In this document: positions 2,998 through 51,039 of the stretch, piece by piece | How the letters are laid out: each line of letters opens with the position of its first letter | Numbering within the stretch: position 1 is the first letter of the stretch | NCBI GenBank assembly: GCA_914767715.1 | Contig: OU612066.1 | Span: forward strand, 10,049,001 to 10,113,000 | Reading direction: 5' to 3' | Source: Membranipora membranacea | Lineage: Eukaryota; Bryozoa; Gymnolaemata; Cheilostomatida; Membraniporidae | DNA: 64,000 bases | Notes under the pieces: generated by a model | The model's database searches: none | What the model saw: the letters and a program-made list of their open reading frames with translations, nothing else | Told to the model about the DNA's origin: nothing | Program-made: the position numbers and the translations under genes

Positions 2998-5900
2998 TCA
3001 CAGATGATTCAAGCTTTGTCTCTCATCTTCACGTTCTGTGAGGTCACCGACCTGTTTCTCATCATCCTCATCAGCGCTGACCTGGGTCATCACCCGAGCA
3101 GCATCACCTGAGGTAGCAGTGTCGTCGGTAGGTTGTGTTATATCACAGACCTGACTAGGGTAAGTTAACGGCACAACGACTACTGATTGAGTATTGCTTG
3201 GCTGACTGTCAGATACCACATCAAGACTTGGTATAACATAGTCTTTACTGATATTGTTATCAGGATGTTCGGGTATTATTTGTTGAGAGTTATGATGGAT
3301 ATCTTGTGGTCGGTCATGAGATCCGTCCTGTTCGAGGTCACTGCTGCCAGTACTGTACTGTGAGTCGAGTGAGTTGGCACATTCTGCAGTCTCTGTGGGT
3401 GCATTAACCGATATATCACTTAGCGAATGCCCGCTGTCCAGCCTTCCATCTCCATTGATAATTTTAATGGATGTTCTTTGAATTTGGCTTTCAGTGTCAG
3501 AGTGTAGCCGTGCCCTATCAGCCTTTACCCACTTTGGGTAAAATTTGCAAACAATCAAAATGGGAACGGCAATGATAACTACTAGACCAGCTACAACCAA
3601 TGCAGCAATCAGTCCCACAATGGTAGAGTTAGAAGTGTTGGGGCTGTCTTCTGAAGGGCCCATAGTGGATGCTGTTGTTGTAGCCGGAACTGTGGGGAAG
3701 GGGGGTATATCCTTTGTGACATCTTCAATTCCATTTGTAGCGACTATTGTGCACATAGATAAAGTTTGGCCCACATATAGAGACTTTGGTACTCTAAACT
3801 CTTGCTCTGCAAACAGATATGCATGATATTGTTGCAACGAACAGATCAAGACAACTTATTGTATAATACTCAGTCATATCCCACACTGTGTTCATCACTC
3901 AGATCTCTTTGTCGAAATAATTTGTAAAACCATGCATGTTATTTCATCATAACATTTAGCATTGAAATAATTCAAACATAGAATTTCAAAAATTATTGAA
4001 AAAAGTGATTTTTAGTAATAACCGAGATTGCTCTAGTTGACAACGGATCACAAGTCAAGCTTCAAGCAACCCCATATGTTAAACCTCGTAAAAAGACACC
4101 AGACTTATAAATGAAGGTGATTTATAAAGCGTTACATGTAGACGCAGCTTATATCTGAAACTTCAAATGGTTCATATGTTGTTTACGTGTATGGTGACTT
4201 GTATCTCTTGTATCTCGGTATATAAAAATCGCCATATCAACCATGTAAGGCTAATGAAAAAGACTCACTGTTCACTAGTGTATAATTCATTTGATGCTGG
4301 TTACATTGTAGATTGGATATCGTGATGGGCATAGGGAAGCCTCTAGTAATGTTAGTGATCAATGAATAATAATCTCCATCATCTCTCCAGTGAGAGGACA
4401 ACTCTATACCAACACCAGCTGGAAAAAACAGTACAAGGACATTCTGTTAACAAATGACCATCAATGTACTGCACAGTTCTTACAGATCAACCGATATGAT
4501 TATCGCTCTAACATATACAGGGCCACAAAGATGATTATTTTACATCATGCATGCTTAACTTTTCTGATGAACAATTGGATCAAGAGAACCATTCTGAATT
4601 GATCGAAGCACATGCCCAAGCTAGTACTGAAGGTTTACAACACCAAAATGTATTTACTGTCAGTGATTCATATGACTGATGGGGAGCTCGACTAATAGAG
4701 TTATTATAACTCTACGGCTCAACTGCACTCTCTGAGTTATAAAACGGCTTTACACACCAATAGATCTCATACCTTTTCGCTCTTCAATATCCACACGACA
4801 TACAGTCCCATAGCTAGACGTGATTTTCACACCACGGGTAGTGGATACTGTATCAGGGTAGCTGCTCTCAGAGAAGTCCGATGCGGTAATGTCATAAGTT
4901 AATTTGCATACAGGGGAATCATTAATATTACAGTTTTTTCCGTCATATGGAGGTGTTGTTTCGAGATAAGGATCCAGAAACTCCAGAGTGAAAAACTGAT
5001 CTCCATTTTCCTATATAGAAAAGAGAGACATTACTGTGCTGCATATCAATCAATAATTTAAAACAGTCAGCAATGTGAAGATGATGGAGAAGAAGATTTG
5101 TCTCCTCATATAATAACCCATACGCCGCCTAGCCGCCTGCTGAGGTGTCTGCTGACATGTGTCCAGTCTAGAAACTTCTATACACAGCAAGAAGACAATC
5201 ATGAGGCATGGCTTTAGCTTTACTCGGACAGTTTTCTTTCGGGGGGGGGGGGGATAAACAGAAGTATTTATTCATGAATTGTCCACTCAGAATGTATATT
5301 GTTCCATCAATGAGTGAGCCATTTAGGAATAAGACCACAAACAGATCTCTCTCATTCAGCTAGGAGTGATCAGATTGTGATTTTGGCAGTTTTTTTTATC
5401 GAAACGCCTTCCATCTCTGGTTGGCCTTCCTACAAAAGGGCTTGGGAACTAAGATACTGACAAGGTGCTCAGATATCAGGATCATAGCGGGGATGTGTGA
5501 GCTGCCCTGTTATCAGACACCACTCCTGTCCTTTGATCGGTGAGATGAGTACTGGCTGGTTTTGCTGATAATCCGCCAGAGTAATGCTAAACGTAACTGC
5601 TATTGGTTTATTAGGTTGGTGAGGATTACCAATAGTTGTACCCTGATAGGCATTGTTGAACTGGGAAATCTGGGAGTTGGAAGTGAACTCCTTTGGTAAA
5701 TGTAGTCTGACATTGCTGCTGAGATATTCATAAAGCCTATGCATTCAAAACATGACGGCCAAGCATGTATACGTGACACTAGACTACAGCCTTGGCTAAT
5801 TTGTTTATGGACACCTTAGCCTTCCAAACCTCTATCCTATAAAAAAATCAATACTTCACACTCAGCCTTTGTTCCACACAATAATGCCACGTAGCTACAG

Positions 5901-8444
5901 AATAATATTTACGATTTGAGTCATCTGGAATTTCCAGTTACTTAGTCTCATCATAATCATTCCAAGTAATGCCTGCAGCTCTATTAGTGATAATTCCGTC
6001 TAGTCACAGGCGCTGTATACAGCCAGTATCAATATCGCAAAATGCAAACAGACTTCTCCTTTGAGATGTAAGCGCCAGTTATTCTGAGTGCCAGTTATTG
6101 TGAGCCCCGGTATTGACAAGTTCCTTATCAGCGACAATGGAATCATGAGACAGAGATAGCATAATTTTCATCTACAGATGAACAAGTTGGAGGAAATGTA
6201 GATCATGCATGATCCAATTTGCCTGCATGTAGGGTTCGAGCCGCCGCCCGCTCACCAATAGAATGGGAATGACCAGACTGCTGGCAATTTGAATCAAACT
6301 TGTTTTAGTATAGAGGAAATGTGTAATAATAATTTTTTTGCACACCTGAAAGAAAGGCAGCCTTCTCGGATTGCTAATAATGTCTACACACCTGAGGATT
6401 GGTGATTGCCAGCGTAAACTTTACATGAAAAGTCTCCACCTGAGGATCGTACACTGCCTGGTGTATATGACGGGTTTCCTGATGATCAAAGACCTTTATA
6501 GCTGGTCTACCATTCACTTCCACATCACAGCTATCCCCCAGAATGACTGTAATACATAATATATCAATGAGTACACAGTCTGAAACGAATTTATAGGTAT
6601 CAGGTCACATTGTAAAAGTATGGGTTATTTGGGTGAGAGTTACTAAAAAGGCTATGCTTGTTGGTAAGGCTTGTAGACTGCAGACTTCAATACCACTATA
6701 AAAATCAAGATTACATTTGATCCTGCCTGCATTCCGGGTTGTTTTAATTTACTGGGGAGCCGCTCAAGGGGGGGAACTCCAAATACAGGCAAATTGGATC
6801 ATACTTGATCTAATAAGAGCCATGGAATATAGAACCCTCAAGGTCTCAGCATGTGTCCAAATTGTCCAAATTTTGAGGCTCAATTCTCAACTGCAGTCAT
6901 AAGAGCCCTCAAACTACAGGGCTCTGGGATAAGACTGATATCAACATATATCAGCATATATCAAAGCAGTCCTCCTCAAAGATAAAAATAGACGCATCCT
7001 GTATCGGAGGAAGTACCTACTACCTAATGATGTAAGCATATCCCCATTGTGTTGCGATTGTGACATTCGATTTTACATACCACAAATTTCATAAAAAGTA
7101 AGAACACAAGACTATCCCCATATGTAATAATGTCCTGCTTTCAATCTAACTAGATGCAAGTTTCGATTTCATAATCATCCTGGGGGATTTTTTAGGTCTA
7201 AATTAAGAACACAGCTAGGCCATTTATTTGAATTTGATATCACTAGCTGGTCTCTTTAAGTTGACTGAGCCTTTTATACTTGCTTATGGTAAGATGGTAA
7301 TTTAGTGGGTAGAAATATTATTATACTGCTGCAGCCACGCATGCTTATTGTCGACTGTGGGTACACTAGTAAACCTTGTCTTGAGCCTTCTCACCCTCCC
7401 CCCCCCCCCACCTTTTCAATGTCCCTGTTATTTAATCTAAAAGTCCAGTATGACCCACTGGCAATGTTGTAGCTTAACAGCTTAACTAGGTGACATCAAC
7501 TTGGCATCGCATCATATGTAAGAACCTATGAATACCAGTGATTTCTTGGCTCACACAGCCTAGGGCTTTCAAGATGAAGGATGATCTTCAATTTTGTTTT
7601 GGTTGGATAATCAAAGCCGATGAGTGACTATGACAGTTAGGCCTGTTTAACAGGCTATGACTAGAATACACAAAACAGCAATCGATTTGTCACAGGTAAC
7701 AAATCTCCTTATGTACTACTACATATTTTAAATGTAATATATGTAATGTATAACCTCTTGTAACAATGTTTTTTGACTGATATATATATATATATATACT
7801 TTATTACTGACAGCTCTCGCAGAGCTCTCACGCACCTCATAGTAATGCTATTTCCGCTTGGTCCTAATTCTTTTCATAGGTTAAGTTTAGTCGGCCATAA
7901 TGCGACTGCATTGGGCTTTGAAAAAAGTTCTATGGTCAAACAATTTCGTATATCCAGTAAAACAAACTTTGGTCAATCACCTTTTGTTTGGATTGCTTTG
8001 ATTTACAATGAAGTCGAGTTGCACATGGGTCAGTGATATGAGGAAGTACACAAATTCCAACAAATTAATAAAAATAATAAATATGACAAAGCACATTTTG
8101 AAAAAGAAAAAAAACTTAATGGTCTTTTGTTTTTTTTTATGGAAGCTAGGGACAGTTTCTAAGACCAAGGGGCTGATCCTGATGATGTCACCTCACTCTT
8201 TAACCTAGTATGAGCCCCCCCCCAGACTTTTGCCCCCCCCCCCTATGCGAGGGAAATGTTTAACTAAGTAGTCTTTTGCTGCTTGGTTTAACCCATGAAA
8301 TGTCACGATTAACTGCCTGATTAACGCTGCCTTTACATTTGATTTCACACAATAAGAGCAACTTAATCTGTACTGACAAAAACATGTTTACTTACTTGGC
8401 ACAGCAACAGCTAATGCTAACAATACGACCACACCTGATCTCAT
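2998..8444 (-). CDS. Type I membrane receptor A of a three-gene tandem family
   Basis: I do not recognise the family. Five exons on the minus strand join in frame: 8444-8396, 6546-6392, 5010-4773, 4418-4269 and 3806-2998, giving 1401 nt and 466 residues. Intron phases are 1, 0, 1, 1. Exon 1 gives a hydrophobic signal peptide (MRSGVVVLLALAVAVP). Module 1 (about residues 22-147) starts with SCDVEVNG and has a Cys pair in its second half plus a late Cys. Module 2 (about 148-225) has an ELSSHW start, LQC and a MCTIVATNG strand, recalling an Ig or FnIII fold. A Thr/Ser/Pro-rich stalk leads to a transmembrane helix at about 259-284. The tail of about 182 residues is acidic and Ser/Thr-rich, with tyrosines at 287, 348, 387 (KDYVIPSL) and 413. 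Genes B and C share exon sizes and phases, so the model is well supported. A cell-surface recognition or adhesion role is inference only. Confidence 0.78.
5241..5253. repeat. Poly-G run
   Basis: This is a run of about 13 G on the plus strand, in the gene A intron between exon 3 (5010) and exon 2 (6392). Similar C or G runs occur near 7398-7409, 8215-8242, 25793-25807, 31630-31641 and 61722-61733. They are low-complexity tracts and their exact lengths may be unreliable in an assembly. Confidence 0.7.
5469..5736 (-). pseudogene. Isolated exon resembling a Cys-loop receptor ligand-binding domain
   Basis: This open segment lies inside the gene A intron between its exons 2 and 3. A possible splice acceptor (TAG) sits just before 5736 and the frame ends at a TGA at 5469. 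The product has RLYEYLSSNVRLHLP near its start, KPIAVTFSITL in the middle, and GQEW followed by QLTHPRYDPDI at the end. The order and spacing recall the N-terminal part of nicotinic-type pentameric channels (a loop-RxYxxLLxNY helix, a KPVxVxFxLxL strand, a QEW strand, LxWxPxxY). A few residues are missing between the middle strand and the QEW strand. I find no Cys-loop or membrane exons nearby, so it looks like a stranded or decayed exon. It could instead be an alternative 3' exon of gene A. The family call is tentative. Confidence 0.35.
6201..6810. repeat. Inverted repeat pair flanking exon 2 of gene A
   Basis: About 27 bp at 6201-6227 (core GATCCAATTTGCCTG) recurs in inverse at 6784-6810 with about three mismatches. 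The pair brackets exon 2 of gene A (6546-6392). It may mark two insertions of the same small element in opposite orientation, or an old element in which the exon now lies. I saw no target duplication. Confidence 0.4.
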
Positions 8445-8449
8445 ATTGG

Positions 8450-9575
8450 GTATTGATTATCTGTGAGGTGTGCAGAACAACCTGTCAAAATCAAAATAAC
8501 AAAAAATGTATTGGTCTTTTTTAATGAATACACAATAAAGAGACTGTCTTATAAGCAATAACACTCTAAACGTTTCAGGCTCCGCCAAACTCATCCTAGT
8601 AAACATGTAGTGGTAGATTGTTCTGATGTTTACATGCCACTACATACAGCCAGAGGGATTGACTTAAAAATCCATAGATCCCTTTCCCCTGAAATCTATC
8701 ATATTGATCATCCTTTCCAATCTTGGAGTCATTACGCCTAGGGTAATGATTGAAATATTTTCCATCTGACTAGCTGTACCCTGACTGCGTAAAGGCGGTA
8801 GGCATTCTAAAGGTCGGCAGTTTGGATTAACCATACAATCTCTAGTTTGGTGTGATTTCTAGTGGTATCTATTGAGAAATTGATCCTAAGGCACGTGCTT
8901 AATATACCAACTACATTGCTCTATGGGGTCTGTGCCAAAAAACACCCTTATATCTTCCCTGTGGATCAAGGCTTCTCACGCTCACATCACTGTGATTTTG
9001 GGTCTAATGGCTCTTGCTAATTTACAAATGCATGGCCTCAATGATAGACTATGTACATTCTGAGCAAATGATTTAAGAACAAATTTGACTTACTGAAAGA
9101 CCGAGTGAGCATAGATTTTGAGCCAAGTGATAGCAATAATTTGCTTGAAATTGAGAGGCACCCATGCTAGCTAAGACAAAAAAAAAAAAAAAAAAAAACT
9201 TAAAGTAAATTTACTCCTCGATTTAATCAAGTTGTTGATTTAATTAGTCTACCAAGTGCCACTGGTCTACTGCAAAAGCAGGATCTCTGGCAAAGTCCCT
9301 GCTCTGCTTTCCCCCTCTCCTATACAACGCCCCTCCAAAAACACGAATATTACCAGATACCCTGGTTTTGCAGCAGTAAGTATACCTGAAGCCAGAAGAT
9401 ATATATATAATATATATGTAAATATCAGTCATATATGTGATTATAATGATACTAATAGGAATACTACTCATAGTTAGTTAGCAGGATAACACTGTACTGA
9501 ATAGTACAATTCTGTGTAGGATATTGATGAGCCCATGCCTGGGCATGCTGTCTGGGGTTAGAGGGGCCCATCCCA
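8450..9575. other. Upstream region of receptor gene A, no gene seen
   Basis: This is the 5' flank of gene A, whose ATG is at 8444-8442. It contains an A-tract near 9178-9200 and a short TA-rich stretch near 9400-9425. No coding frame has family resemblance. Any promoter for gene A should lie here or in the neighbouring repeat. I could not identify a clear TATA box and initiator pair. Confidence 0.4.
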
Positions 9576-9579
9576 GAGA

Positions 9580-10044
9580 GGTTTCAATTAGAGGTTTAGC
9601 CGTACTTTCACGGCTAAAGGTCAGCTAAAGCTAAGCCACTCACCAAATCGGGTTTCAATTCGGAAAAATATAACACACTCATAGCTGATTCTTAGCCGAA
9701 TCTTGGCTGTTCTGTTTGAGACGGCTATCACTCAGCCACGCCACCATGCTATTTCATATGTTATAAATGCTAATTGATTGAATAGTATCATACTTTCGTA
9801 ATTACGATTCATCAAAGTGTAATTAATCTGCAATGACAATAGACATAAAAACCACAGACTCATAAACTCTGTCGTGTTTAGTGATAATGTGAGATTTCTC
9901 CAAAATAATATATATCTACTAAGCTGAGTGACAACTGACTGGTAGCAGGGCCTAATTGAAACATGATTTAGTGGCTGCTAAGATCTGGCTAAAGCACAGG
10001 TATATGTCTGTTAAAATCAATTTAGCCGGATCCTAATTGAAACC
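9580..10044. mobile_element. Putative MITE with GGTTTCAATTAG ends
   Basis: GGTTTCAATTAG at 9580-9591 is matched in inverse by CTAATTGAAACC at 10033-10044. Both ends continue inward to related TTTAGCC motifs. Additional copies of the end motif lie inside, near 9652 and 9950. No coding frame is present. The roughly 465-bp length and terminal inverted repeats fit a non-autonomous DNA transposon. The target duplication is not clear. Confidence 0.5.
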
Positions 10045-10510: not shown

Positions 10511-10568
10511 TCGGTATTACGGTACGTGGATGATTCGTACTCAGGACTATTCATACAGACGTTTCGTA

Positions 10569-10838
10569 GAATTGTAGTCATTTGGTAGAAAACTATTTCG
10601 TCGAAAAGTCATTTGGTAGAACAATTTTTCGTCGAATGGTCACTTGGTAGAATGACTTTTCGTCGAATTTCGACCAGGTGACCACAATCCCTTGGTCATT
10701 TGGTAGAAAATTCTTGGTCAGTATGTCGAAAATAAATTTGATTATTTATTACTGATTTATATACTGTATTCCTACCACTTATTGAGACTGGAGACAACAT
10801 GTGCCTCCTAGGAGTGCTCATATGTACCAGAGATCACA
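10569..10838 (+). repeat. Left terminal inverted repeat of the MULE
   Basis: This segment is the reverse complement of 14721-14990 with few differences. It includes the alternating CATTTGGTAGAA and TTTCGTCGAA subterminal repeats over its first 110 bases, followed by a unique part ending at GTACCAGAGATC. Confidence 0.85.
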
Positions 10839-12196
10839 AATCAACAGTTGATTGGTTGGTGAGTAAAAAGAAACTCTGGAGTGAAAACTAACTTAAGACA
10901 GGCCTATTCCAAAAAGTGAGTACTCAAGTATGTGTATATATATATACTATAAAGTTGTTATCAAACAATGTAGGTAACTGCCAGTTGTAGCTTTCCTACA
11001 GTTAGTTTGCACTCATTATATTACAATGTGGAGGCTGCCACATAAGAGAAACAGTTTCAACAAGGAGTTAACAAAGAGTTAACATCTTAGTTTCAAGCTT
11101 TTCCCTTCTATCCTTCCTCTGATGCAGATGCAGCAATAGTAGGCCAACTATATATATATGGAGTGCAGAAAACTGAAAGCGGAGTGAGTGAATACAAGAG
11201 TCTTGGGCCAATAGTAATGAAGTAACCAGGTTGAGATGTGTCAAGTCGTAAGTAAGTATACATGCTTGTGACTCAAAACGCCAGTGCTGAGCCAGGGAGG
11301 GCGGGTTTATCCCATCCCATCCTCTCTGGTTGAGCAGGGATCGGTTTTTTTCTTGATGCAATGAAAGACAGCATACACTAGCTGCAGTTCCTATAGGTGT
11401 CCATTAGTTTCCTCAAATAACATTCATATGATGCCCTTGATTTTACTCATGTTGAATTTGTCCACGGACAACAATTTCTTAGCTCAATTTCCTGATGACG
11501 ATCATATCAATGCTATTTGAGTACTCACAGGGGGCGGCACCAAGAACCCCCCTTCCGGTTTCAGTTTGCTCAACGGTTTCCCTCCCTTCCCTACTTCCGG
11601 CTGGCTTGCCACCTCAGTGAAAACGGGGGAGTCTAACGCCCTCATGCACCCTTCGTCGCCACTCGAGGCCGCCTCTTTTGAACCTGATACTCATCTCATA
11701 CTTACCTACACGGCAACTTCCAATCTGGTCTGGATTACTAACTGATCACACTGTTCTGATAACAACTTCCGGATCCCTCCCTTCACTTCTCTTCTACCAT
11801 AAGTAGACACTCTAGAAAATTGAAATTGAATAACCTGCTAATGGATGTGTTTCTTGTCACAAACCTTGGATAAAACTGTGGGTAATTTTGAATGTAGTCT
11901 TGCGCTTCACCTTTTCATGTTCTGATTTACTTTAGGCACAATGTCAAACTTCATCAGATACAAAGATGGTCAAAGTTGGATTTTGATTTCCTGAATATGA
12001 CGGACATCCTGATTTGAGACTCTGAGCTCGCGTATGAATGTAAGGTAAGGGCATGTGAAAGTAGGCCTACGGAGATATTAACATAGACGTCCTGTCAAAT
12101 CTTCTTTTTTTTCTGTAAGATTCTGTTTTAGATGGAAATAAAATAGTAGTGTTATAATGTCAAAAGTATACTCTCTTAACAACACATACCTCAGAG

Positions 12197-12643
12197 TTAG
12201 CGGCTGAAAGTTGGCATCATTAGGCTGGCCACTTTTAAGAATCCTGAAGTTGTTATCTCCTTGCTCCGTAACTGCTCCCACATCGCATCTAGCTTTGTCT
12301 GTCTGTTCTTAGTGGCAACTGATCGTTTCCTTGACAGCTCCCTTAGCTTGACCAACTGAATGTCATTAGTTGTCGCCTGACTGTCACTGTATAAAATGTT
12401 GATTAGAAGGTACATGTTCGGCTTGTGACAAGGAAGTTTCCTGTTCAGCTTGTGGTGATATCCCTCCAGATCGTTGTTCGTCCTCGTCTCGACTCCAAAC
12501 ATGGACCAATCAGCTGGCTTCCATCCTGCTCTTCCAACCATCCAATACTTCTCAAAGTATGCCATCAAATTAGTAACTCCATCCATATGCTCTAGCTGTT
12601 TCGCCTTAACCTGAAGGTAGGCGAATCCCCCAAATATATACAT
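12197..12643 (-). pseudogene. MULE transposase C-terminal fragment
   Basis: The frame of about 148 residues reads through YFEKYWMVGRAGWKPADWSMFG, then TRTNNDLEGYHHKLNR, a MYLLINILY helix and a basic coil. The RTNNDLEG-HxxLN pattern after an aromatic W-x-G-x-P-x-x-W stretch is, from memory, typical of the region after the catalytic core in MULE-domain proteins with FLYWCH-type zinc fingers. No DDE catalytic core is visible upstream on the same strand. A lysine-rich possible upstream exon piece lies around 12655-12730. Stops and frame breaks surround the fragment. It sits between the inverted repeats of the 10569-14990 element and so is most likely that element's decayed transposase. Confidence 0.6.
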
Positions 12644-12976
12644 ACCTTTGCTTTCGTTTTACAGAAACTGCAGAGGTAGTTTCCTGCCCAACGGGACTTA
12701 CTCCAACAGATGGTCTTTTCAGCATTTCCCTGTTAATACGAAGATAAATAAGGTAAACATTTCACACATGCAAATAAATTCCTTGATATTTCTTCATATT
12801 TAAGTGATTATACAAAGTAAAACCAAATATTTAAATATAATGCCAGGATTTTTTGCAATCAAGTCCCAAATCAGATTGACAGTTACATGCTAAGTCTGTA
12901 ATTCATATGATTTTAATCATATTTTGGGATGACAGCAAAGAGCACTCCTTGATGACAGGTAAGGCCTGAAACTTAG

Positions 12977-13181
12977 AGGACAACCAGGGTTTTGTAGCAA
13001 TGCATAAATAAATAGTAAAGAATGTGCTATGCTGCATCAGCTTTGTGCATGATGCCGTGCTGACTCTTAGCTGAGATACACTTCAGTTTAGGGAAGGTTC
13101 AAAGACATTGCTGTATTAATGATGGAGCAAATGCTAAATATAACAGGAACAGGAAACTTGTTCGAAACCCTGGTTGCCCTA
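12977..13181 (-). mobile_element. piggyBac-like MITE, internally deleted copy inside the MULE
   Basis: The ends AGGACAACCAGGGTTT and AAACCCTGGTTGCCCT are inverted repeats. The interior matches parts of the element at 31181-31540 in reverse orientation (GCATCAGCTTTGTGCAT and ACAGGAACAGGAAAC). At about 205 bp it is shorter than the 360-bp full copy and has an internal deletion. Its position shows that it entered after the MULE sequence was in place. Confidence 0.65.
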
Positions 13182-14720
13182 AGAGTTAACTTATCATGGT
13201 GTCACAATGACCAGGTACATGAAGATGGCACTATAGTCAAGGTAAGTGTGACTAGCCAATGTGACAATGAATGTGCATAATAAACCATATGCTAAAATAC
13301 CAAAACAGCCCCTCTTTTTCTGATCTCTTAAGATGGTTGTAATCTGATGTGTGATCATAAGAGCTATCGGAAGGTTTACCATTGTTACATTCTCTCATTT
13401 ATGTTATTATTGGTAATGAAAGAACTTGCTAACTGTCTAGCAAAGCAAACATGCACATTTAATGAAGCTTCGACAATCACTTACCCAGCGCTTGTTCTTC
13501 TCGTACTGTCAAAACAGCTATCACATGTAAATTTGATATCCTTTTTTTCTCTTACAGCATGTCTATATTCTGCCTGGGTAATGTTTGTATGTATCCGACA
13601 AGTCCACTGTTCGCAGTGATCTCACTGGATCCCCTGCCTTCGGTTACTGACTTCAACATTACAAGTTACACACGGATTTAATTTATCTTGACGTATTGCT
13701 GCTTTTCTTAGTGGTCTCTGCATGTTCACGGTTTGTGTTCAACTGACCTGTATCGAAAGTTTTTATACCTACACATCCTCTCAAAATCCAAAGCTGGAGG
13801 ATTTACAAGACAATAATGCTCATAACAACTCTTTCATGTATTGAATAATTTCATAATTCACGTAACCTAGATGATATTATTCAGCTTTTCACATAGGATT
13901 AACTGCTCATAGCCAGTCTTCTGTATTGTTTCAATTTTAACAGTTTTTTTTCTAAGAAAAGAGCAAAATTAATGAGATCCCAGAATGAGTTGACCTTCCC
14001 AGTGACTTCAAAGTAGCCTCGTCACACAGTTAACTTCAATGGGTGCTTGTATATTGAAGAAATTCCTACATCATTTTTCTCAAACATTGTCCAAATTTTA
14101 TTTTCTTGTACTTTGACAAACAATAATGTATATAGATAACAAAGGGAAACAAATTTTAGACTCGAATGTAAAGAAAAATATATTCAGCGTTATGCATGCG
14201 AAAAGTCACAAATGAATATACATGTAGCTACAGGATGAAAAAAATTACAGTTATCATTCATCTATAATTAAGCTAAGTTAGTAAGACATTTACTGGCAGA
14301 ATGGGGTAGGCTAGTATAATTATTATGAATCTTTTGAGTGCAGAAACTGCTTTATGCTGTCGTCTGATGAAGCCAGGCTATGCGCAAATTGCAATATGAT
14401 GTTGTGTTATTTATGTGTTGTTGTAAATTATTCTGAGTTGTCGAGTCATATGATAATTGGTGGACGATGAATACCAGTTTCATGCAGATAGATTGTGATC
14501 TCAGGCAATATGGAGCATGTGATAGCAATATTGCATGTTTTAGGCTGACCTCTGCTTATCCATCTATAAACACAAAAATTGTGGGTAATGGCAAGTAGTA
14601 ACAGGGGACTCTTTGGTAACAGGAACTGGGCAAATCATCATTCATACATGACACTTGGCAGGGGCAGGGCTCCCAATCTGGTAGTGCATCGCCCAATCCA
14701 GCACGTGGACCTGGGTTACA

Positions 14721-14990
14721 TTTGGATCTCTGGTACATATGAGCACTCCTAGGAGGCACATGTTGTCTCCAGTCTCAATAAGTGGTAGGAATACAGTATA
14801 TAAATCGGTAATAAATAATCAAATTTATTTTCGACATACTGACCAAGAATTTTCTACCAAATGACCAAGGGGTTGTGGTCACCTGGTCGAAATTCGACGA
14901 AAAGTCATTCTACCAAGTGACCATTCGACGAAGAATTGTTCTACCAAATGACTTTTCGACGAAATAGTTTTCTACCAAATGACCAGTTAC
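14721..14990 (-). repeat. Right terminal inverted repeat of the MULE
   Basis: This is the inverse copy of 10569-10838, ending next to the second CGTTTCGTA duplication at 14991-14999. It has the same subterminal motif series in reverse order. Confidence 0.85.
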
Positions 14991-14999
14991 CGTTTCGTA

Positions 15000-15984: not shown

Positions 15985-15992
15985 ATCTAGGT

Positions 15993-18529: not shown

Positions 18530-18673
18530 TCCACAATCCATAACAAAACTTCAAAATAATTCTGCACCAGAATTATGATACCGTATGAGGAAGAGTATGA
18601 AGAGAGACTTTCATCACTAAGCTCTAAATATACATCTTGATTTTCTTTGTTTTAGATATATTGCAGAGGTTAA

Positions 18674-19034
18674 AAGGCAACCAGGGTTTCAAACAACTTC
18701 TCGTTGATTAATAGCAGATTTCACTTTCTGCATAGGGAAAAAGACAAAATCTAATTTGGATGATAATTAAGCCAGAATTCTTGTGAAACATTTCTTCCAT
18801 CAGGTACTCAAACTCAGCTAAAATAGAATACCACAGAGCAGTTTCCTGTTCCTGTTATTATTTAGCCTGTGCTCTATCATTATTACAGCAATGTCTTGGA
18901 ACCTCCCCTAAACTGAAGTGTTACCCAGTTTAGAGTCAGCAACTACTTTGAGTTTTGCATCGCGTAATGCACAAAGCTGATGCTGCCCAGCACATTATTT
19001 ACTACCCATTAATGCATTGCTGCGAAACCTTGGA
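18674..19034 (+). mobile_element. piggyBac-like MITE, 3'-damaged copy
   Basis: It starts directly after a TTAA (18670-18673) with AAGGCAACCAGGGTTTC and follows the 31181-31540 element almost throughout. At the right it reaches GCTGCGAAACCTTGG, but the expected GGTTGCCCT end is absent. It carries no coding capacity. Confidence 0.75.
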
Positions 19035-19827: not shown

Positions 19828-22800
19828 TCATGGCTGACTCACCTCCTGGTACACAGATCCACTCTCAGGTGGTACGTAAGTGGAGCAGTTAAAATCTGAG
19901 GATAGAAGGTCAGTCTGACCGTAGTCGTTGTGGGATTGTTGTGCCTCGATATCCTGCGATTGGTCAAACACCATTTCATATGATGGTATCCCTGAGTCAT
20001 CACTTTCAGTAGGAGACGGAGGGCAGTGAGATGCGGGGATGTGTGACAGCGAGAGAGCAGGGCTCAGCTTATCCTCATCTTCATCTTCTTGAGTTATATC
20101 GACAGCATTATTTACCCCATCCTCAATGTAACCTTCCATTGTAGCTATAGTATTATTAACAGTTATTTTTCCGAAGCACCCCCCTCCCTTATTTCTCAAA
20201 ATGAATACCGCTCCAAGTACAGCCAAAACAAGGAACAGGAACAAAACGCACCCAATTATGATTAGTGTGATTAGTGGCCTTATCTCGTTGTCACAAGAAT
20301 CTGTGTCGGGTTGAATTGTAGGAGCATTGATGTCTTTGACCAGGTATCTTTCGTTTCTATGATTTGTAAACACGGCTGTAAATGAATTATCCTTAAATCT
20401 TTTTAAGACTGCCTTGTCTACAAGGAATCCAGCACCTAAAATTGAAAAAAGGAGAGTATGAGAATTAACAAATGTATAAAGGAGATTTTCTCAAGGTTAT
20501 TGCCAAATTTATGTATATACATTCATATAAGTTACGAAACTTTATCTTTTCAAGTGTATAAGAGGCCTCTAGGGGCGTTTGAGCCCAATTAGCTGTTCAT
20601 CTTATGACCGAACATTTATCTAGAAGACTATTGGCAACAAAGTATATTGGACGTAGGCAGGAAAAACAAGGCTGAGTTTTGTTATTAGCCTAAGAAGTTT
20701 ACTTTGTTGAGTTACCCATCCTCAGCGCATGAGAGAGCAACTACAATATTATCATGAGTGTTTTAAAAAGTCACCCGCTTTTCTGTCTGAAGCCCCCATT
20801 ACCAATGTATTTGTAAAAACTCTTTTCTCACTTCTGCAAAAGATTGGAAGACAGCCTCAATATACATAATTGCACTGAACACGTGCCAACAAGAGCTAGA
20901 GCATGTTGGTCCCCTCAGTAGACGAAGGGTCACTGCAATTGCAACATCCCTCCTCCACCTGCAGAGGTAACAAACTTGTTTTAACCCAAGTCACCGAAAG
21001 TTAAGTGTTTTAGCAAAACTCAAATGACTCCTCAACCAACCCCTCATATTTTAAAAGAAAGAAAAAAAGGTTTTCTGTTAAGTCTCTGATCTTTCCACTC
21101 ACATTGTGATCTAACTCGTTTCTGACAAGGTAATTTGTGAAATTGATTTTTCTAGAGATATGGATCTCTGGCTTGTGTTTAGAACCATTCCTAATAGCGA
21201 ATTGGAGTCTCACCTTGGAGGACCAAAGCGGGTACTTGTTCTGTTCCGCATTCTAGACTGCTGGGATGAAAACCACTCGGAAATCCAGGTGACTTTAGTT
21301 TTGTGTGCAGAAAATATGACATCGTATTGTTGAGTTCGTCCCATGTGGTCTCAATCTCAGGAAGAATCACTTCTACATATCAAGCAAACTTAATAAATGA
21401 TTCAGCTCCAAGGCTGTTTAGCAGGAAAAAGTGTCACAAGATGGAAAACAGCACATTGATAAATTGTCTTGTTCGGAAACAGTTTGGTGGGAATATGTCT
21501 TGCTGAGAAAATATCCAAGTGGAGAAAATTGATTGATGGAAAACATCCAGGTTGGAAAATTAATTGGTGGGAAAATGTCCAGGCTGGTAAATGGCTCCAA
21601 TAACTAAGAAACTAATAACAGAGGATGAGCACACAATCAAAAGGGAAAATGAATCTTTCAACTCTTAAAATGGTGCTGACAAAAATGTAACATGATGATA
21701 TTTTGACTCACTTGATCCTGTGACTACATGAAGAGAACAGATGGCTCTACCCGCGCTGGTTATTTGAGTTACGCTTGACTTTAGTGACAGTTCTGCGCGA
21801 GATCTGTCGGGGTCTTTCAGTCGGTATGAATAGTTCAGTACAAAGTTTTTAGACGAATTTGTAAGATGACACTGTTTGTTCATTTCTGTGTTTATGAAAT
21901 AACACTGATTTTTACCTTCCTGAAAATAAATTAGAGAGGTTGTTACGAATGGAAATGTGTTAAATACTACTGAGAGAAATTTTACCTAACTCTGCAGTCT
22001 AGCGATGACATTGAAGAGTGAAAATTATGGATGAATGTCGACAAAGACTCAAACATAGCTCTTAGTAGGCCAACTCTGTAGTTATAATTTAACAATATTG
22101 CTTTCATTTTGGGTTGCTAATGCAGGGTGCAGCATTATCCAGCATTATCCAGCATTATCCAGCATTATACAGCATTATACAGCATTATCCAGCATAGCAG
22201 CTCCAGCTAGCACATCCCAAATTAGCACAATCAACTCGCTAAGAATGGTGGTTCATCTGTTCTTTTGATTAAACAAAGTCGTCCCCAATTATTGACTTTG
22301 AAAGCGAACGAGGACTTCGATGTGCTTATATCACAAGTTTTATACACAATCAAGCTAGTATTTTATGCTTTCCAGGTGTTACAAGCCAATTTCTAAATGG
22401 TCACTACAAATGAATGGCTAATTCTTCTGACCATTTTTACCGCATTATTTGTAGTAAGGTTGAACTTTATCTTTAAAGTATTGCCGAATCCGGTATAGAC
22501 AGTTTCATACAAATACGCAAATGTATCATGCTGTTGGTAAGGTGCTTGTAGCTGTACGCTCTCCTTCTTAGTTTCTGTGACTTCAATCGTGCATTCAGAA
22601 TTTGCTACAATAAAAAACTGAGATATCAGGATGGTGGCCATGTCAGCGTTTGTGTGTAAGCAACCATAGAGTCATCTGAACATATCTGGCAGCAGTTCCA
22701 TTAGTTCACTACTTTGAGATAATCAGGTATATCAGGTAAGCAATTCTGGATACAATGTAGATGAAATTGGAGCTGGATCACTAAAGGGTAATATCATAAT

Positions 22801-23560
22801 TACAGTATATCACACGGACGCAGCTGTACGTATTCATAATAGGCTCTGTAGCTACAGTTTTAGACGATAAAAAATGTTATTTTAGATGCCGCACCCATTT
22901 TATCAAATAATACTCCTGGATTCAAAAACACTGCACAAGAATTGTGATGAATCCTATCCTAGCATGGTTCAACTGAACTGGGCTATCAGCAGTATATTTT
23001 TTCAATTTACAAAAATCATTATGCTTTTTTTCTCTATGCATTAGGTCTTATTTGACCGGCCTATTTAACGAGCCCCCAATAAGCTCAGGTGGCTTGTGTG
23101 CGGTAGTACCCTATACCCTTGCCCGCCATTGCCAGCTTCTCTTTAATTTAATAGGCATGCAGAGGAGGATCTTTATACTGAGTGCAAGCACACACAACTT
23201 GGAAACTATCAATGCCTGTTTAAAATTAAAATTTTTCATCATCAAAGCCGAACTCTGTAAAAGCGGCAATGATGGAAAATGAATACAGCTACTATTTGGT
23301 CAGCCATCGATGACAGATCTCTGTTCCCGACTAGCCATATACATAATATATACCATGATATGATAGGTTTATACAACTAGCAGCTCCCAACAAATACTGT
23401 TTTTCCATAGAATATGGTGATTACAATCAAAGGTACTGTTTTCTATACAAATAGCTTACTTAGTGCACATTCGATTTTGTACTCAAGACTTACCTTTTTT
23501 TATGGCTATCAACACTCCGAAAACCATTATGTACACAATAACTGAGTTTGAGAATGGCAT
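19828..23560 (-). CDS. Type I membrane receptor B of the tandem family, with ITIM-like tail
   Basis: Five minus-strand exons join in frame: 23560-23494, 22604-22441, 21919-21712, 21372-21214 and 20435-19828, giving 1206 nt and 401 residues. Phases are 1, 0, 1, 1, as in genes A and C. Exon 1 encodes a signal anchor-like leader (VIVYIMVFGVLIAI). Module 1 begins SECTIEV and ends AICSLHVV. Module 2 runs from LPEIETTW through SLEC to SFTAVFTN, where the other members have a Cys in the last strand (SCTV in C, SMCT in A) and B has Phe. The transmembrane helix spans about 253-279. The tail of about 122 residues has tyrosines at 352 (PSYEMV), 371, 386 (TYVPP) and 395 (SVYQEV). The last fits the S/I/V/L-x-Y-x-x-I/V/L inhibitory motif. 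A signalling role for the tail is inference. Confidence 0.78.
22131..22195. repeat. 10-bp tandem repeat
   Basis: About six and a half copies of AGCATTATCC, some with TAC in place of TCC, in the intron of gene B between exons 2 and 3. Confidence 0.85.
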
Positions 23561-23911
23561 CTTTCTTTGTAAACCACCAGGTTCTGATAACGTCAGCGAC
23601 CTGAAATTTGCTTTGGTATCCTGGTGAGCTGCAAGCTCTATCTGCAAGATAAAATATTCAAAAATACGATAACAGCCAAAAGGGTAATACTTGTTGAATA
23701 TTGATCATGTCAGTCAAGGATGTATTTTCCATATTCATTATGCAAATTCTCAAACTGCAGGGTAAAACATTCAGACACTTGGTCTCAATCCAACATGTAA
23801 TGTCAATGAATGTCAGGTCAGGTCATATTCACCTACATTTGTTCGACAATCTATAATGGTACTCACAACCACCAGGGCAATATGAACGAGCTTAAAGGTA
23901 TTCATCTAATC

Positions 23912-24261
23912 CAGGGGTGCCCAACCTTTTCATTGAGGGGGCCGCATCCACATATTGCAATGTCCCTGCGGGCTGCAACCTCACCATAAACCAAACATTC
24001 ATATATTGGTGTGCAGTATTTTCATCTCTGCAGTAGGGAATTTATTAATTGGAGCTCACTCAAATGCAATGGTTTGGGAATTCCAAAATACTGTGACTAG
24101 ATGTACATTGTTACTTATTATTGTACAAATGAGGAATGATATAAACATAGGGTGTGAAAATTGTTTTGCGACTACGCAATTTTCTCAAACGGGTCGGGGG
24201 CCGCATAAAATTGGGTCATGGGGCCGCAAGCAGCCCCAGGGCCACTCGTTGGGCAGCCCTG
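23912..24261. mobile_element. hAT-type MITE upstream of gene B
   Basis: The ends are CAGGGGTGCCCAACC and GTTGGGCAGCCCTG, in inverse. The flanking octamers ATCTAATC (23904-23911) and ATCTAAAC (24262-24269) match at seven of eight positions, consistent with an aged 8-bp duplication. The interior contains GGGGGCCGCAT-like segments near both ends and no coding frame. It lies 350 bp above the ATG of gene B. Confidence 0.75.
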
Positions 24262-24269
24262 ATCTAAAC

Positions 24270-27200
24270 GATGCACCTATGATTTTAGACAAATACCCAC
24301 CGAGACGCTCCATTTTACTAAAACACAGGAACAAACCTGAGGAAGTTCTGCTTTAGGCACCAAGCTGCACCATTTTTAAACGAATCATTTAAGTAGAGCA
24401 TATACCCTTTTTCTTACAACAGAGCGCTCAACCAAAAAAATGATTTCATCATGACAATGATACAATACAATATACATATATACATTTACAATATATTTTA
24501 TATTACAGGCATCCATGAGAAAATTGCTTCTTACCTTTTCTGACTGAAAACAGTGGTTTCTTATTTTTAGAAATAAATTCTGAGACTAAAGTTTCAGATT
24601 CAAAATTGCTGCAAACATTGAGAGTGCCAGTAAAATACATCAGCTTATATAATGAGCAATCATCTTTACACGGACACATACACTATAATGCAGCATTGAA
24701 ACAGCCTTGGAAGTCAATATGATCCGCAAACCTTCCTAATATCAAGCCTGAGTGCTTAAGTCAGTTGGGGTTTCTCATACCCGGTCCCCTTAGGCCTACT
24801 GATGAAAGATGAGTGATCAGGATCCCAGACTAGGCAAACAGGATGTTATATGTAGAATAGTTCTAGATTATTAAAACAGAGCATGTGTAATGAACAGGCC
24901 TTTTGTTGAAGTGAAGGCCAACTGTCAGCTGCCAGCAAAAAACCCAGGGGTCTCAACCCTTTTACTCGTGGTCTAGACCTTCCTATATATATATATATAT
25001 ATAATATGTAATTTTTGTTTATTGTTACCGTTATTGTCAGTCTACAATCATATTTTAGATTGTTTTGCATGCAATAACAGAAAAAAGAAAAAGAAGAAAA
25101 AAAAGAGTAGAGTCAAGGATGCTTTGATATCAGTCATTGAAAATAAATCTGCTTGTGCCTTGGGATGCATAACTGCAGCGACCTCTTCATCAAAATGAAA
25201 ACTAACCATGCCTATGCAAGATTTGATCAAACCGAGGAACTCAATCGATCATACAAACCTCACCTCTATATCACAGACAATGATGGAATACAATATAACC
25301 TCTCCCCTATATCTGGTATATCAATATCCTCCCTGAAAGAGCAAAAAATACTCATCCCTTGTAATAATTACATCAGAGATGACGAAAAAAGTCATAAAAA
25401 TGATTGAAAGAACACTGATTGATGACAACCCAACAACAAAATTCCAAAACAATTATGGCTGTGTTTTCAATCAAAGGTGATGTATCAATATAAATAACAT
25501 GGTCTGATTACCTTTTTATACAGTGATCAACAACTCAACCAAAGAACTGAACTTTGTTCATTGCTCAAAACACACAAAAATGTAGAAAAGAACCGAACTG
25601 CGCTTAGGCAACATCTTCTGTTGTAAACTAATGGGATCTGATGAACACAGTGGCTGCGATGGCCAATGTCAGTTTGAATGGCAGTAAGAATAATATGAAT
25701 CTGTCTTAAACGGACTCATGATGAGCTACAAGCTTTGTCTGTGTAAAAGTTGTGAAAAACATCAACTTGGCCATTCTTTAAACAACACAACTCCCCCCCC
25801 CCCCCCCAACGCCTACTCCCACCAAAAATTCATTTCAAAATGGGCGGCATATGTTCAGTGATTGTTTGATATCGACATCTGATCCCAATGAAACCTGTTG
25901 CAACAAAGGTATTATTCACCAAGCTACCTACAAAGAATTTCTGACAAAGAATAACTTCACCAACACTTCTAGACCTGAGACATTTACATAAAATGCTATA
26001 CATTATATATATCCTAGAGAAGTATAGTACTTGCAGGAGGAAACTTCGCCATTTCGCACATGTTTATAATAGCTAACATTTACACACCCTTTTTACGTTA
26101 TATAATATATAATATCATCCCAGCTAGCGAAGAGTATAGTATAGCTCTAGCCAACATTTACTTCTCTATGGTGTATGTATACAAACGTCCCTAAGAAAGC
26201 TTTTTCTTACGTTAACCAATTGAAAGCCACATGATTTTAGAGATTAAACTTTCTGGAGCAGAACTGGTATAGACTGTAAACTATGTAGTAGCAGTGAAAG
26301 CTTTGTACTACAGCCACACTCCATCCATACATTGATAATTCAACAACATGAGTATTGTGACTCTACTGGAGATCATCCAAAAATCCAATCTAGCCACTGG
26401 CTTTTTGGCATCAGGAACCCAACTAAGGACAGGTGTTGCTGGCCGTGTGGGTTTCCCATACCACCCCCTAAATGATAACACATGGCAGACCTGGATGCTA
26501 GGCTTTCAGGATGTCTGAATGCAAAAAAGACTGTAGGGTGAATAAATAAAACAGAATGGCAAATGCGGTAAACAAATGACCATCCTTGTGGGATAGTAAC
26601 AGAGGCAATAGATATTATCTAGGGTCTCTGGTAGGACTATACTGAGCAATTGTGGTCACAACAAGGAAGTCATGTCAACTCGGTGCAATGAAAAGCTGCC
26701 GAATAAAAAATCCAGGGTCCTAAACATTCACCAGTTTGTGGTATGAGATACATATGGATGTCAATTAAATTACTCATCACCCTCTCATCAGCAAAATGGT
26801 TCATTGAAAAACCATCAAGCCACACCAAAATAATAAAGTGTTCACACATTTTCCCTTGGGCACTCCAATCCTCTGAGAAAGGTTTTGGCCCTTAATAATT
26901 GAAAACAAACTGATAATGTATAAAATAGCCTCTTTGAGACAGCATTATTGAATTATGAAGGGCTACCAAATACCAATTTCTGACATGTTTTTGACTTTTA
27001 TTATAATAATTCTTGCATTCAAAGTAGGAAACAGCATTTACTCGTATATAGTGAATGAGTAGTGGCAGCGCAATGCCACACAATGTAAGCTAACATTGAT
27101 TACATATATGGTATACCAATAAACTCCCCCTCCTCCCTCAACAAGGTTCTCGCAGTCTTGCCACGCAGCTCTCTTGATTTTTGAGGCCCATGTGACAAGG

Positions 27201-27800
27201 CTAGGTAGCCCAAACATTGTATGCAAAGTCACAGAGATTATATTATATAGCCTTAGGTTACTGACTGTATTATGATTTGGCGCTCCACTCTCAAACATTA
27301 CAGAAATCAGCTTAGAAAACTTCTTCAGAAACTACAAAGAAGTTAAAAATTGTGTACAATTTTACATCAAGGCGTATAGTGGTCTCATCCAAAGCTGCTG
27401 ATTTCAGACTATGTCAGGGTGGATGCTTTGCACCTCTTAGCACCGATTTACTTTAGCGACCAAAACTTGTGACTTAGAATAAAGCACCAATAATTTGGTC
27501 AGAGTCTTATAACAAAGATCTCCTCCGGCCTGTGACTGATCTAAATGAAAATGAAAATTCATAATAACTCGACTACATATTTAAATGTGAAGATGTCGGG
27601 ATACAGCATGAAATATGTACAATAGTGTATGACTTAAAAAAAACAATGTATACCCAATTTTGAACTGATATGACGTATGGCAGTTAGGAGAAAATCTACA
27701 TAGAGCTAAACCATTACCTCATTGAGAGGTAAAAGCTTGTGGTCACTGGAGGGATGGACAGGGTCTCTAGTGGAGGGATGGACACGGCCCCCAGTGGAGA
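24270..27800. other. Intergenic DNA between genes B and C, no gene seen
   Basis: The stretch contains (TA)n near 24984-25003, a poly-C run at 25793-25807 and AT-rich sequence. The longest frames are under 90 codons and resemble nothing I know. The right end abuts the stop codon of gene C and should hold its 3' untranslated region. Confidence 0.45.
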
Positions 27801-27804
27801 CGGA

Positions 27805-30800
27805 TTAAGACCCAGTGGGTAAAGACGAAGGTTGTTGAGGAGTATTATCAAGTTGTTCATTGAGAGTTTGAGGTTTGTTCAGGCTTGATGGCTGCTCATT
27901 ATCCATGTACGTGGAATTTGTAGCCAAACTAAAATCAGGTCCATCCGTTTCCAACTGAGCCTCAGTGGTCGACACATCGGAGACGCAATCATCGGAAGGG
28001 TCTGGTGGATGATGATCGGATAACTCCGACAAAGAGTCATTTAAACGTTTATTTTCATTGCTGTCTATAGCACCAATGTTGATAGTAGTTACAGGAGTGA
28101 CCAACCTGCCTTGGCACAGTTTTCTTAGCGGCACTGTCAGTATCAGTTGTAGAACTATAACACATATAAGGACGATACAAGCTACTTTCCAAGTTTCCGC
28201 ATTATTAGAGCTGGAATCATTATCTAACAACTGATCAAGTTTGTGTTGATCAGGATCAGATAAACCTTGAAGGCGGGCAGCTGCAGGTACTGTTAATGAT
28301 GGTGACACGACTTCACTGGCAGAGTTACTCACCCTTACAGTGCAACTATCCTTCAGGCTTAGTACCTTTCTACTAACTACAAACCCATCTAAAAAATAAA
28401 GTGTATTAAATGGATTAACAAACATTCAAACCTCAAAGGACGATTTGTCTACCTTTTTGAGCTCTCTAAAATCATGTACGATGACCCTGCACTTGTCATT
28501 TCTGCTTTAAAGTATATGGTGACTTTGTTGTGATGAGGTATTACGATATTAGATGCCAGAGCTTGGAAAAGCAGAAGAAGCCGAATATTAAATGATAGTA
28601 GTACCTGATGTTTGTATAGCAGAGGACATATTATGCCCGTCACATTGTAGACCCTCTTCAAGTTGAGGTGTGGGGTAGCCTGACATCTTCACACTGAGCA
28701 TGTAGTTGTCACCTTTCTGCTCCCATGAGAGCTCCACCTTAGGTACAGGGTCAACTAGAGCATAAAAACAGCAGGATTACGACAACGAATAATAAGGCGC
28801 TCACCTCTCCCTTTGTACCCGAGCATCATGTCTAGAAGAAGATACTTTGGTTACGTTTAAAAAAAAACAACGCCTTTAGTAGTTTGCTGGCTGCAATTGG
28901 CAATTGCCATTTGCATGTAGCGAGACGGAGGTGTTTTATATCTATGTCAACCTTTATACCACCCTCATACTCCAGCATATAACTCAGTGATTGTTATGTA
29001 GTTACGAGTTGTGTAACCTTTTATGTTATGGAGACAACTCCTTAGATATATGTACTGGGCAGCCATATAAATTAAGTTAGACGATGTTCATCTTTGGTTA
29101 AGAAATACAACAGTTTACTCTCCACAATACAGTGACATGTATGTACACAATTAAATAGTGATAAATTAAACTAAGCACAAAATTGCTGCCATAACATTGA
29201 GACACGAGGTAAATCAGCTCAGACAATTACCATGATGTGAGGCAGTGGTGAAATCCAGCACACATATATCTCGATTTTCTGTGTCGACAACAAGCCTCAT
29301 AGTCTTATAAGTCTGCCTGAGAAGGTGAGACATAGATGGGGGTGTGTAGATATAGTTAATAGAGCAATTCTCCGGCTGAGATGGCCTACAGTTCTCTACT
29401 CTACGAAGCTCCACTGAGCGATTATCAGCATTCCGTAAAAAGAACCTCTGTCTCTTATCGGCTTTCTGGAAAATATAATAACTTGAACATGAGAATAAAT
29501 GTACGAGTTCCACCAGCATCAAAACTAATACCAAGTAGAATTTAAAAAAAAAAAAATCCCATCATATAAAGTTGAATGATGTTATACTTAGCTATTAATT
29601 TTAATAAGCCTAATTATCTAAGCGTCCATCATCAAGTCTATTTTTCTTTACATAAAAAAGCTTCATGGAGACAGAGCCTAACTTCTAATAAACAATCATG
29701 TTGTTGTGAGTCTCTATCCAGGCCTATTATGCTCTTCAATGTCCAAAACAATAAATATGAATGTTGCCATAATGATAAATGTGGTTATCCCTGCAGCCAG
29801 GACAGAGTTTTGTAAATATAATATATTTTGGATATGATAATAGTTAAAAGAAATTCGGTGGCAGTGCACTAAAGCACTGTCAACAAAAGCAAATATATTG
29901 CCGATCGATGTCTACCATTTTTGAAGGCAGGTGCCAAGGAAAGTCAGGTCAAAAGGTCAATTTTGTTTCGATTTTTACAATTTTTAAAACTTGAGGAGAA
30001 AAAGTTTTATTTCATAGCCTGATAACACACACAATAAGCTAATTATTACTAGGCACGGAGATAAAGATTGATACTCATCGATTAATTTCAGGGCATATAT
30101 CATCACCATCTCACCAACCTCGGTTTATGAAAAAAGCACTGTCCTCTCTCAAAACATGGGAAGAAAACTCCAGACAATAAAATGAAAAAATATTCCTCCC
30201 ACCCTCCCTGATTTATCCCAACAGAAGGTTGTTCGTTCGTAAACTATTACCTTCTAAGGATTAGTCGTTCCAGAATAATCTTTAAAAAAGATCTAGTGAT
30301 TGTAACTAATTGAAAAAATCATGAATGAATATGTTTTACATATGGTTAACAGTTACAGCCTGTAGTTTTGATCAATGTTGAGCACATTTAAAAGTGACAG
30401 CTAATAACTGATACACTTACATTTGTATCATGTTTGAACTTGAAGCTGATGTTGTATTCAATGTCACGTCTGGATGTTTCAGGGGAGATTATCTGATAGA
30501 AGAAGCCATAACCAAGCAGATGTTTCACCCTCTGGGGCTCGCTGCCATTGACAAGAACATCACATGAACCTGCACCTAGAAATAAAACCAAAGGTTGACA
30601 ACTTTCTTCATAGTAACTACCAACTTGTCAAAGAATGTGCTGTTGAATATCACCTATTGGAAAGAACTACCTCATCATCAGTATTCCATCTCTGGTCACA
30701 TTACCCTACGGCCGAAGCATAATCAAACCAATACCTTTTTACCTAATACCTTTTTGTTAATAACTGACCTATATGTACAGTGCAGATCAGTAGTGTTAGG

Positions 30801-30817
30801 CATATGAGCAGCCTCAT
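27805..30817 (-). CDS. Type I membrane receptor C of the tandem family
   Basis: Five minus-strand exons join in frame: 30817-30769, 30575-30421, 29465-29231, 28754-28605 and 28388-27805, giving 1173 nt and 390 residues. Exons 1, 2 and 4 are exactly the same lengths as in gene A (49, 155 and 150 nt). Exon 1 is a clean signal peptide (MRLLICLTLLICTVHI). Module 1 starts SCDVLVNG and contains NCRPSQPENC and a late DICVLDF. Module 2 has VPKVELSWEQKGDNY, then LQC, then DSCTVRVSN, the most Ig/FnIII-like version of the three. A stalk leads to the transmembrane helix at about 264-284. The tail of about 106 residues is rich in Ser, Asp and Pro with a single tyrosine, Y357 (STYMDN). I do not recognise the family. 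Cell-surface location follows from the signal peptide and helix. Confidence 0.8.
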
Positions 30818-37188: not shown

Positions 37189-37199
37189 ATCAGGCTACA

Positions 37200-51037: not shown

Positions 51038-51039
51038 GT

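Follow-up and report, generated by a model that had tools for sequence, protein, structure and literature searches.

A tandem family of putative two-module type I receptors in the bryozoan Membranipora membranacea

Introduction

The Alr genes of Hydractinia are clustered, number at least 41 loci and encode single-pass proteins of low identity between members, which structure prediction places in the immunoglobulin superfamily (IgSF); two of them, Alr1 and Alr2, are described in the same source as highly polymorphic (PMC11067881). Here we describe four tandem genes, A to D, of the bryozoan Membranipora membranacea, three of which lie in a stretch of 64,000 nucleotides that was analysed as a whole (the window: positions 10,049,001-10,113,000 of the forward strand of contig C2) and the fourth just outside it. 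Compared by description only, they resemble the Alr genes in being clustered and in coding for type I proteins that cross the membrane once and are of low mutual identity. However, there are four genes here against at least 41 loci, and little polymorphism is seen where it is visible, i.e., in the fifth exon of all three window genes and the second exon of B.

The products of these genes can also be compared with two larger groups of receptors. The signal peptide, the pair of compact modules, the stalk, the single helix and the tail are shared with IgSF type I receptors, as are phase-1 introns before module 1 and between the modules, but an internal intron splits each module in all four genes, no Pfam Ig model matches, the profile similarity is within chance and, by eye, no canonical pair of cysteines is apparent at the likely B- and F-strand positions. 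With class I cytokine receptors they share a four-cysteine outer module, an inner module and a single membrane pass, but they differ in having neither a WSXWS motif (by eye) nor an FN3 profile match.

The assembly analysed comprises 339,339,785 bases in 18 contigs, with 39,529,243 bases in C2; the published description of the genome gives 339,374,674 bp in 21 scaffolds and a chromosome 2 of 39.53 Mb with 38.1% GC, and it names poly(A) RNA-seq of the specimen, ERR6464929 (PMC10290214). In the open-access literature that our searches returned, no family of this kind was described for bryozoans, nor were any bryozoan recognition molecules.

Results

Four or more genes in tandem

As judged from its genome sequence, Membranipora membranacea carries a tandem family of at least four putative type I single-pass receptors, which is apparently lineage-restricted. 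The genes all lie on the minus strand, in the transcription order C, B, A, D, within about 36.5 kb of one chromosome. Genes A, B and C had been proposed by an earlier note on this DNA, and all three proved to be real where it had placed them when they were rebuilt from the sequence. Each has five exons with intron phases 1, 0, 1, 1, a common layout which the note had described and which is borne out by a GT start and an AG end at 12/12 introns. Once the exons are joined the frames are fully open to the stop, as it had also claimed, giving products of 466, 401 and 390 amino acids (aa) respectively. The note's lengths for exons 1, 2 and 4 of A and C were likewise confirmed (49, 155 and 150 nt in each gene); the corresponding exons of B measure 67, 164 and 159 nt.

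Gene A opens with a signal-peptide-like exon 1 (8396..8444; coordinates of A, B and C are those of the window, minus strand), which holds the ATG start codon and ends at the donor GTAAGTAA in phase 1. The first part of module 1 is encoded by exon 2 (6392..6546; acceptor TTACAG, donor GTGTGTAG, phase 0) and the second part by exon 3 (4773..5010; acceptor TATATAG, donor GTATGAGA, phase 1). Module 2 begins in exon 4 (4269..4418; acceptor TTTCCAG, donor GTGAGTCT, phase 1) and ends in exon 5 (2998..3806), which also encodes the stalk, membrane helix, tail and stop and is matched by a database fragment, P0001. The helix, residues 260-278, falls at 3565..3621 with a hydropathy peak of 3.21 (19-residue window); this position, like those of the other two helices in the window, was taken from the exon table.

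In gene B, the start codon and signal-peptide-like sequence lie in exon 1 (23494..23560; donor GTAAGTCT, phase 1), and module 1 is encoded by exon 2 (22441..22604), its first part, which is matched by fragment P0004, and exon 3 (21712..21919; acceptor TTTTCAG, donor GTGAGTCA, phase 1), its second. Exon 4 (21214..21372; acceptor TATGTAG, donor GTGAGACT, phase 1) carries the first part of module 2, while exon 5 (19828..20435), matched by fragment P0003, carries the end of module 2, the membrane helix (residues 255-273, 20215..20271; hydropathy peak 3.27), the tail and the stop. Gene C follows the same order: exon 1 with the start codon and signal-peptide-like sequence (30769..30817; donor GTCAGTTA, phase 1), exons 2 and 3 with the first and second parts of module 1 (30421..30575; acceptor TTTCTAG, donor GTAAGTGT, phase 0; and 29231..29465; acceptor TTTCCAG, donor GTAATTGT, phase 1), exon 4 with the first part of module 2 (28605..28754; acceptor GCTCTAG, donor GTACTACT, phase 1) and exon 5 (27805..28388), matched by fragment P0002, with the remainder of module 2, the stalk, the membrane helix (residues 265-283, 28129..28185; hydropathy peak 2.91), the tail and the stop.

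The three members counted by the earlier note turned out to be too few. When a family profile built from A, B and C was run against the 2136 open reading frames (ORFs) of at least 20 codons in the six frames of the window, the 12 above threshold were exons 2-5 of these three genes, and no other family ORF was found among them. The same approach was then extended to the flanks (C2:9,939,001-10,049,000 and 10,113,001-10,203,000, scanned together with the window; 264 kb, 200 N included) and turned up an additional gene to the left of the window, D, which is nearest to A. Since D had been left out of the profile, it supports the family independently; afterwards its junctions were chosen by hand in knowledge of the layout. 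Gene D is an intact fourth member on the minus strand at C2:10043315-10047623 (window coordinates -1377 to -5685), 1.4-5.7 kb left of window base 1. Its exons 1-5 (10047623-10047560, 10045949-10045798, 10045304-10045079, 10044519-10044370 and 10044084-10043315) measure 64, 152, 226, 150 and 770 nt, are separated by GT..AG introns in phases 1, 0, 1, 1 and encode a product of 453 aa.

Genome-wide searches returned 10 matches for A at E up to 10 and 9 for D; the two queries found each other and no other credible match, and C (cutoff 1e-3) recovered C alone. As the A and D queries missed B and C, such a search reaches closer relatives only, and therefore four is a lower bound and any other members in the genome that are as diverged as B or C would go unseen. 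A possible fifth member at C9:6297257-6297508 (E = 0.03) was rejected, the adjoining ORFs being EGF-repeat-like by eye and the similarity limited to the end of module 2, the stalk and the helix. A weaker match at C10:14420344 (E = 1.1) was read as ORFs only and not counted as a member, and a tblastn match confined to the tail of C (C2:9982486-9982785, E = 0.007), which falls in a tail belonging to another family, was discounted as compositional.

Protein architecture and homology within the family

Each of the four proteins has a hydrophobic, signal-like start, a two-module ectodomain and, by hydropathy, one strong hydrophobic membrane helix. The outer module (module 1) spans about 120-130 residues and contains four cysteines; the inner module (module 2) spans about 90 residues with one conserved tryptophan, and with two cysteines in A, C and D. 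Before the helix, cysteines occur at residues 23, 95, 103, 139, 186 and 216 in A, at 30, 95, 103, 139, 186 and 216 in D, and at 21, 94, 102, 136, 184 and 212 in C (with two more, 6 and 12, in the start peptide). This 4 + 2 pattern is common to A, C and D, while B departs from it (27, 83, 94, 138, 188 and 247). The pairing is likely to be 1-4, 2-3 and 5-6. Each ectodomain carries 3-6 N-glycosylation sequons, and the tails are polar and acidic, with lengths of 186, 126, 105 and 173 residues and 4, 5, 1 and 2 tyrosines in A, B, C and D. Among these tails only that of B holds a sequence resembling an immunoreceptor tyrosine-based inhibitory motif (ITIM), a single SVYQEV.

The ectodomains are homologous. 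Their local-alignment scores (A-B 96, A-C 130, B-C 112) were each reached by 0/1000 shuffles, and the similarity is found in both modules when these are taken alone: module 1 scored 54, 49 and 53 and module 2 scored 46, 94 and 72 for the same pairs, reached in each case by 1, 0 and 0 of 1000 shuffles. The tails of these pairs showed no detectable similarity (scores 34, 50 and 37, reached by 598, 61 and 304 of 1000 shuffles), and nine comparisons of module 1 with module 2 gave no clear similarity (300 shuffles each; lowest 23/300). D is closest to A, with scores of 468 for the ectodomain and 170 for the tail (shuffled 39.0), each reached by 0/1000 shuffles. Its ectodomain also aligned with those of B and C (scores 79 and 99; 0/1000 each), and its tail scores against these two were reached by 118/1000 and 299/1000. 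The earlier note's description of the family is supported: the genes look like an undescribed family in tandem, whose products are type I membrane proteins with two modules and a single pass.

The A-D pair is the closest, and its identity varies by part: 4/16 in exon 1, 16/49 in exon 2, 23/75 in exon 3, 26/50 in exon 4, 23/62 in the ectodomain portion of exon 5 and 64/162 in the tail. Among the larger parts, module 1 has changed most, with 31-33% identity; the exon-5 ectodomain keeps 37%, the tail 40% and exon 4 52%.

Search for a known domain

The earlier note had been unable to assign the modules to a named domain, and the Pfam and PDB-sequence searches produced no credible family for them either. 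Pfam at E up to 10 returned nothing for A and C, nor for any of the six modules of A, B and C taken singly. The weak matches of B (Insulin_TMD, E 0.0026; TGBp3; DUF3679) and of D (PRIMA1, E 0.00065; UL41A; DUF7507; and two more) were under the curated cut-offs, and the best of them lay on helix-containing stretches. Among PDB sequences there was no credible match for A, C, the three-gene profile or the two module profiles: the module 2 profile matched nothing at E up to 10, and the matches of A and C (E 0.15-0.64), of the three-gene profile (E 2) and of the module 1 profile (E 0.03-2; phage DSAD1, laminarinase) were taken as chance. The family is apparently new; its architecture is ordinary, and the absence of an assignable domain is unusual.

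Database fragments and relatives elsewhere

Searching with full-length A at E up to 10 yielded at least one protein, P0001, among 8000 scored, and searching with the three-gene ectodomain profile yielded three, P0002-P0004, among 3646 candidates. The latter search missed P0001, which shows that the protein searches are lossy. All four proteins are fragments of A, B and C from other assemblies, apparently of the same species, and some read into an intron. P0001 differs from A in 11/277 columns, of which 7 fall where the fragment reads intron, up to and including the border of exon 5, leaving 4 of the 268 residues encoded wholly by exon 5. P0003 differs from exon 5 of B in 6/182 columns, one of them being the start methionine of the fragment, and P0004 agrees with exon 2 of B throughout the alignment (0/54 aligned residues differ), outside which a difference is seen by eye in the last codon of the exon. 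P0002 is identical to exon 5 of C (0/194 differ) up to the stop of C and continues for 33 residues beyond it (by eye; window about 27706-27807, minus strand), such that the end of the C tail differs between assemblies; this tail seems to vary in length from one allele or assembly to another. The comparison covers exon 5 in all three genes and, for B alone, exon 2, and few changes are seen there.

Among the proteins scored, these two lossy searches found no relative of the family outside the species, and none came to light when viral and prokaryote contigs were scanned for two peptide patterns drawn from the ectodomain alignment. As a control we used a neighbouring intronless gene for a 5-HT1A-like receptor (35818-37194, minus strand), which gave at least 996 matches at E <= 1e-60 among 8000 scored; the top non-self identities were 87, 75 and 63% among the matches listed. 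It would therefore seem that close relatives of Membranipora membranacea are represented in the database, and the absence of A to D there suggests fast divergence, loss or the fragmentation of multi-exon genes.

Neighbourhood of the array

Between A and B lie two inverted copies of 265 bp (10577-10841 and 14720-14983), 98.5% identical and about 3.9 kb apart, which have the appearance of terminal repeats from a young DNA transposon. The ORF that they enclose (12197-12658, minus strand) is transposase-like by eye, with no Pfam match at E 0.01. An interspersed repeat occurs in three copies around the receptor genes (18670-19033, 31177-31533 and 12984-13158; 76-87% identical), and a remnant resembling a retrotransposon reverse transcriptase adjoins C (32596-33380, minus strand; weak RVT_1 match under the cut-off).

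In a quick tree of 120 listed rows, the 5-HT1A-like receptor of the window fell in a 20-row clade outside the mollusc/annelid/Lingula/nemertean clade. Further along, at about 46000-51040 (minus strand), is a coiled-coil gene whose exons resemble what we take to be CCDC89; a palindrome of about 420 bp (47524-47946), 90% self-complementary, lies within this stretch. Two tandem actin genes, recognised by eye, follow on the plus strand at about 53400-56400 and 59430-62540, with blocks 78-95% identical and apparently the same introns. Left of D, at a distance of 60-100 kb, there is seemingly a second repeated family (C2:9944401-9945357, plus; 9963921-9964880, minus; 9961592-9962326, minus; 9971969-9972448, plus; 9982213-9982857, plus), which by eye comprises two alike propeller-like ORFs of about 320 aa and three alike tails containing proline and tyrosine.

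Discussion

Genes A to D probably encode tandem cell-surface receptors or adhesion proteins, with recognition at the cell surface as the most likely use, be it in innate defence or in cell-cell or colony contact. The array probably arose by old tandem duplication. In such proteins the outer module would contact the ligand, presented by the inner module and stalk, and the tail would recruit cytoplasmic partners. As the tails do not match, the partners recruited would differ between B, C and the A/D pair, and this diversity would yield different outputs. In the A-D pair, the outer module is less conserved than the tail, a pattern expected if selection on the outer face were diversifying or relaxed and a tail used for signalling were retained. 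Several points weigh against this interpretation. We infer the function of the four genes from their architecture alone, and no spliced product was found with full-length A or the ectodomain alignment in searches lossy enough to miss P0001. The argument from rates concerns one pair and identities only, and the one tyrosine motif, that in B, is weak evidence for signalling.

A tentative alternative is that these are degenerate IgSF receptors in which one or both modules are Ig folds lacking the canonical cysteines. The loss of these cysteines has been described for other invertebrate families, and the I-set pattern is L.C.V.G.P.P in the B strand and Y.C.A.N in the F strand. By eye, LSVKMSGYPTP (C) and CTIVATN (A) in module 2 fit these strands with the cysteines replaced, and in the family alignments the likely B- and F-strand positions are not cysteine, a strand assignment that is insecure without a structure; the two cysteines kept in A, C and D (186 and 216 in A) are others. 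We compared the module profiles, using hhalign, with six Ig and five FN3 domains, taking column-shuffled alignments as the null. With four genes, module 2 scored 12.67 against Ig over a shuffled mean of 9.83, but 18/200 shuffles scored as high and an unrelated Ig-FN3 control reached 13.0. Module 1 was at the shuffled mean (92/200), although only 4/100 shuffles had scored as high with three genes, a result that did not survive the addition of D; the three-gene figure for module 2 was 9/100. The Ig similarity is within chance in profile comparison, Pfam gave no Ig model at E up to 10 and the module 2 profile matched no PDB sequence at E up to 10; the Ig-like look of module 2 by eye may be taken as a lead. 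Cytokine-receptor-like proteins, with two FN3-type modules of which the outer is disulfide-rich, are an unlikely reading: the two-module ectodomain, the four cysteines of its outer part and a hydrophobic pattern in module 2 that is possibly FN3 by eye would suit it, but shuffles scored as high against FN3 in 39/200 cases for module 2 and 112/200 for module 1 (27/100 and 18/100 with three genes), no WSXWS was seen by eye in the four translations and Pfam gave no fn3 or cytokine-receptor match.

The earlier note had likened the cluster to allorecognition loci such as Hydractinia Alr. This likeness had drawn on nothing but clustering and divergence, and we found it unsupported. It would make the C-B-A-D cluster a self/non-self, histocompatibility-type locus of cheilostome bryozoans, working like Alr, in which an outer module with a fold unlike that of Alr or botryllid proteins mediates colony recognition and the matching of its alleles controls fusion or rejection. 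We consider both the locus type and this mode of action highly improbable. The proteins are clustered, diverged and single-pass, and a colonial host makes the idea less far-fetched, which is not evidence for it; historecognition is reported in bryozoans in a review (PMC12018476), and the paper on the draft genome of Bugula mentions weak similarities to Alr1 (PMC7576161). However, four genes only were found, and the fragments, apparently from the same species, vary little where they can be compared (4/268, 6/182 and 0/194 in exon 5 of A, B and C, and 0/54 in exon 2 of B), a weak argument as little of module 1 is covered. The one large difference is P0002, which reads through the stop of C. Least probable of all is that the genes are decaying or non-expressed duplicates, or that the joins are not made in the animal: the members are very diverged, but all four keep their phases, splice signals and open frames of at least 390 codons, A, C and D keep six cysteines, and A and D keep the similarity of their tails.

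Cell-surface receptors or adhesion proteins remain our preferred explanation. If the proteins do act at the cell surface, they would represent receptors of a family that lacks any catalogued domain, and the recognition molecules of this phylum seem to be little known. If they prove to be only a small, divergent adhesion family, they would matter mainly as an annotation gap. With four genes, the array may offer a compact target for testing the molecules of bryozoan defence, cell contact or colony recognition.
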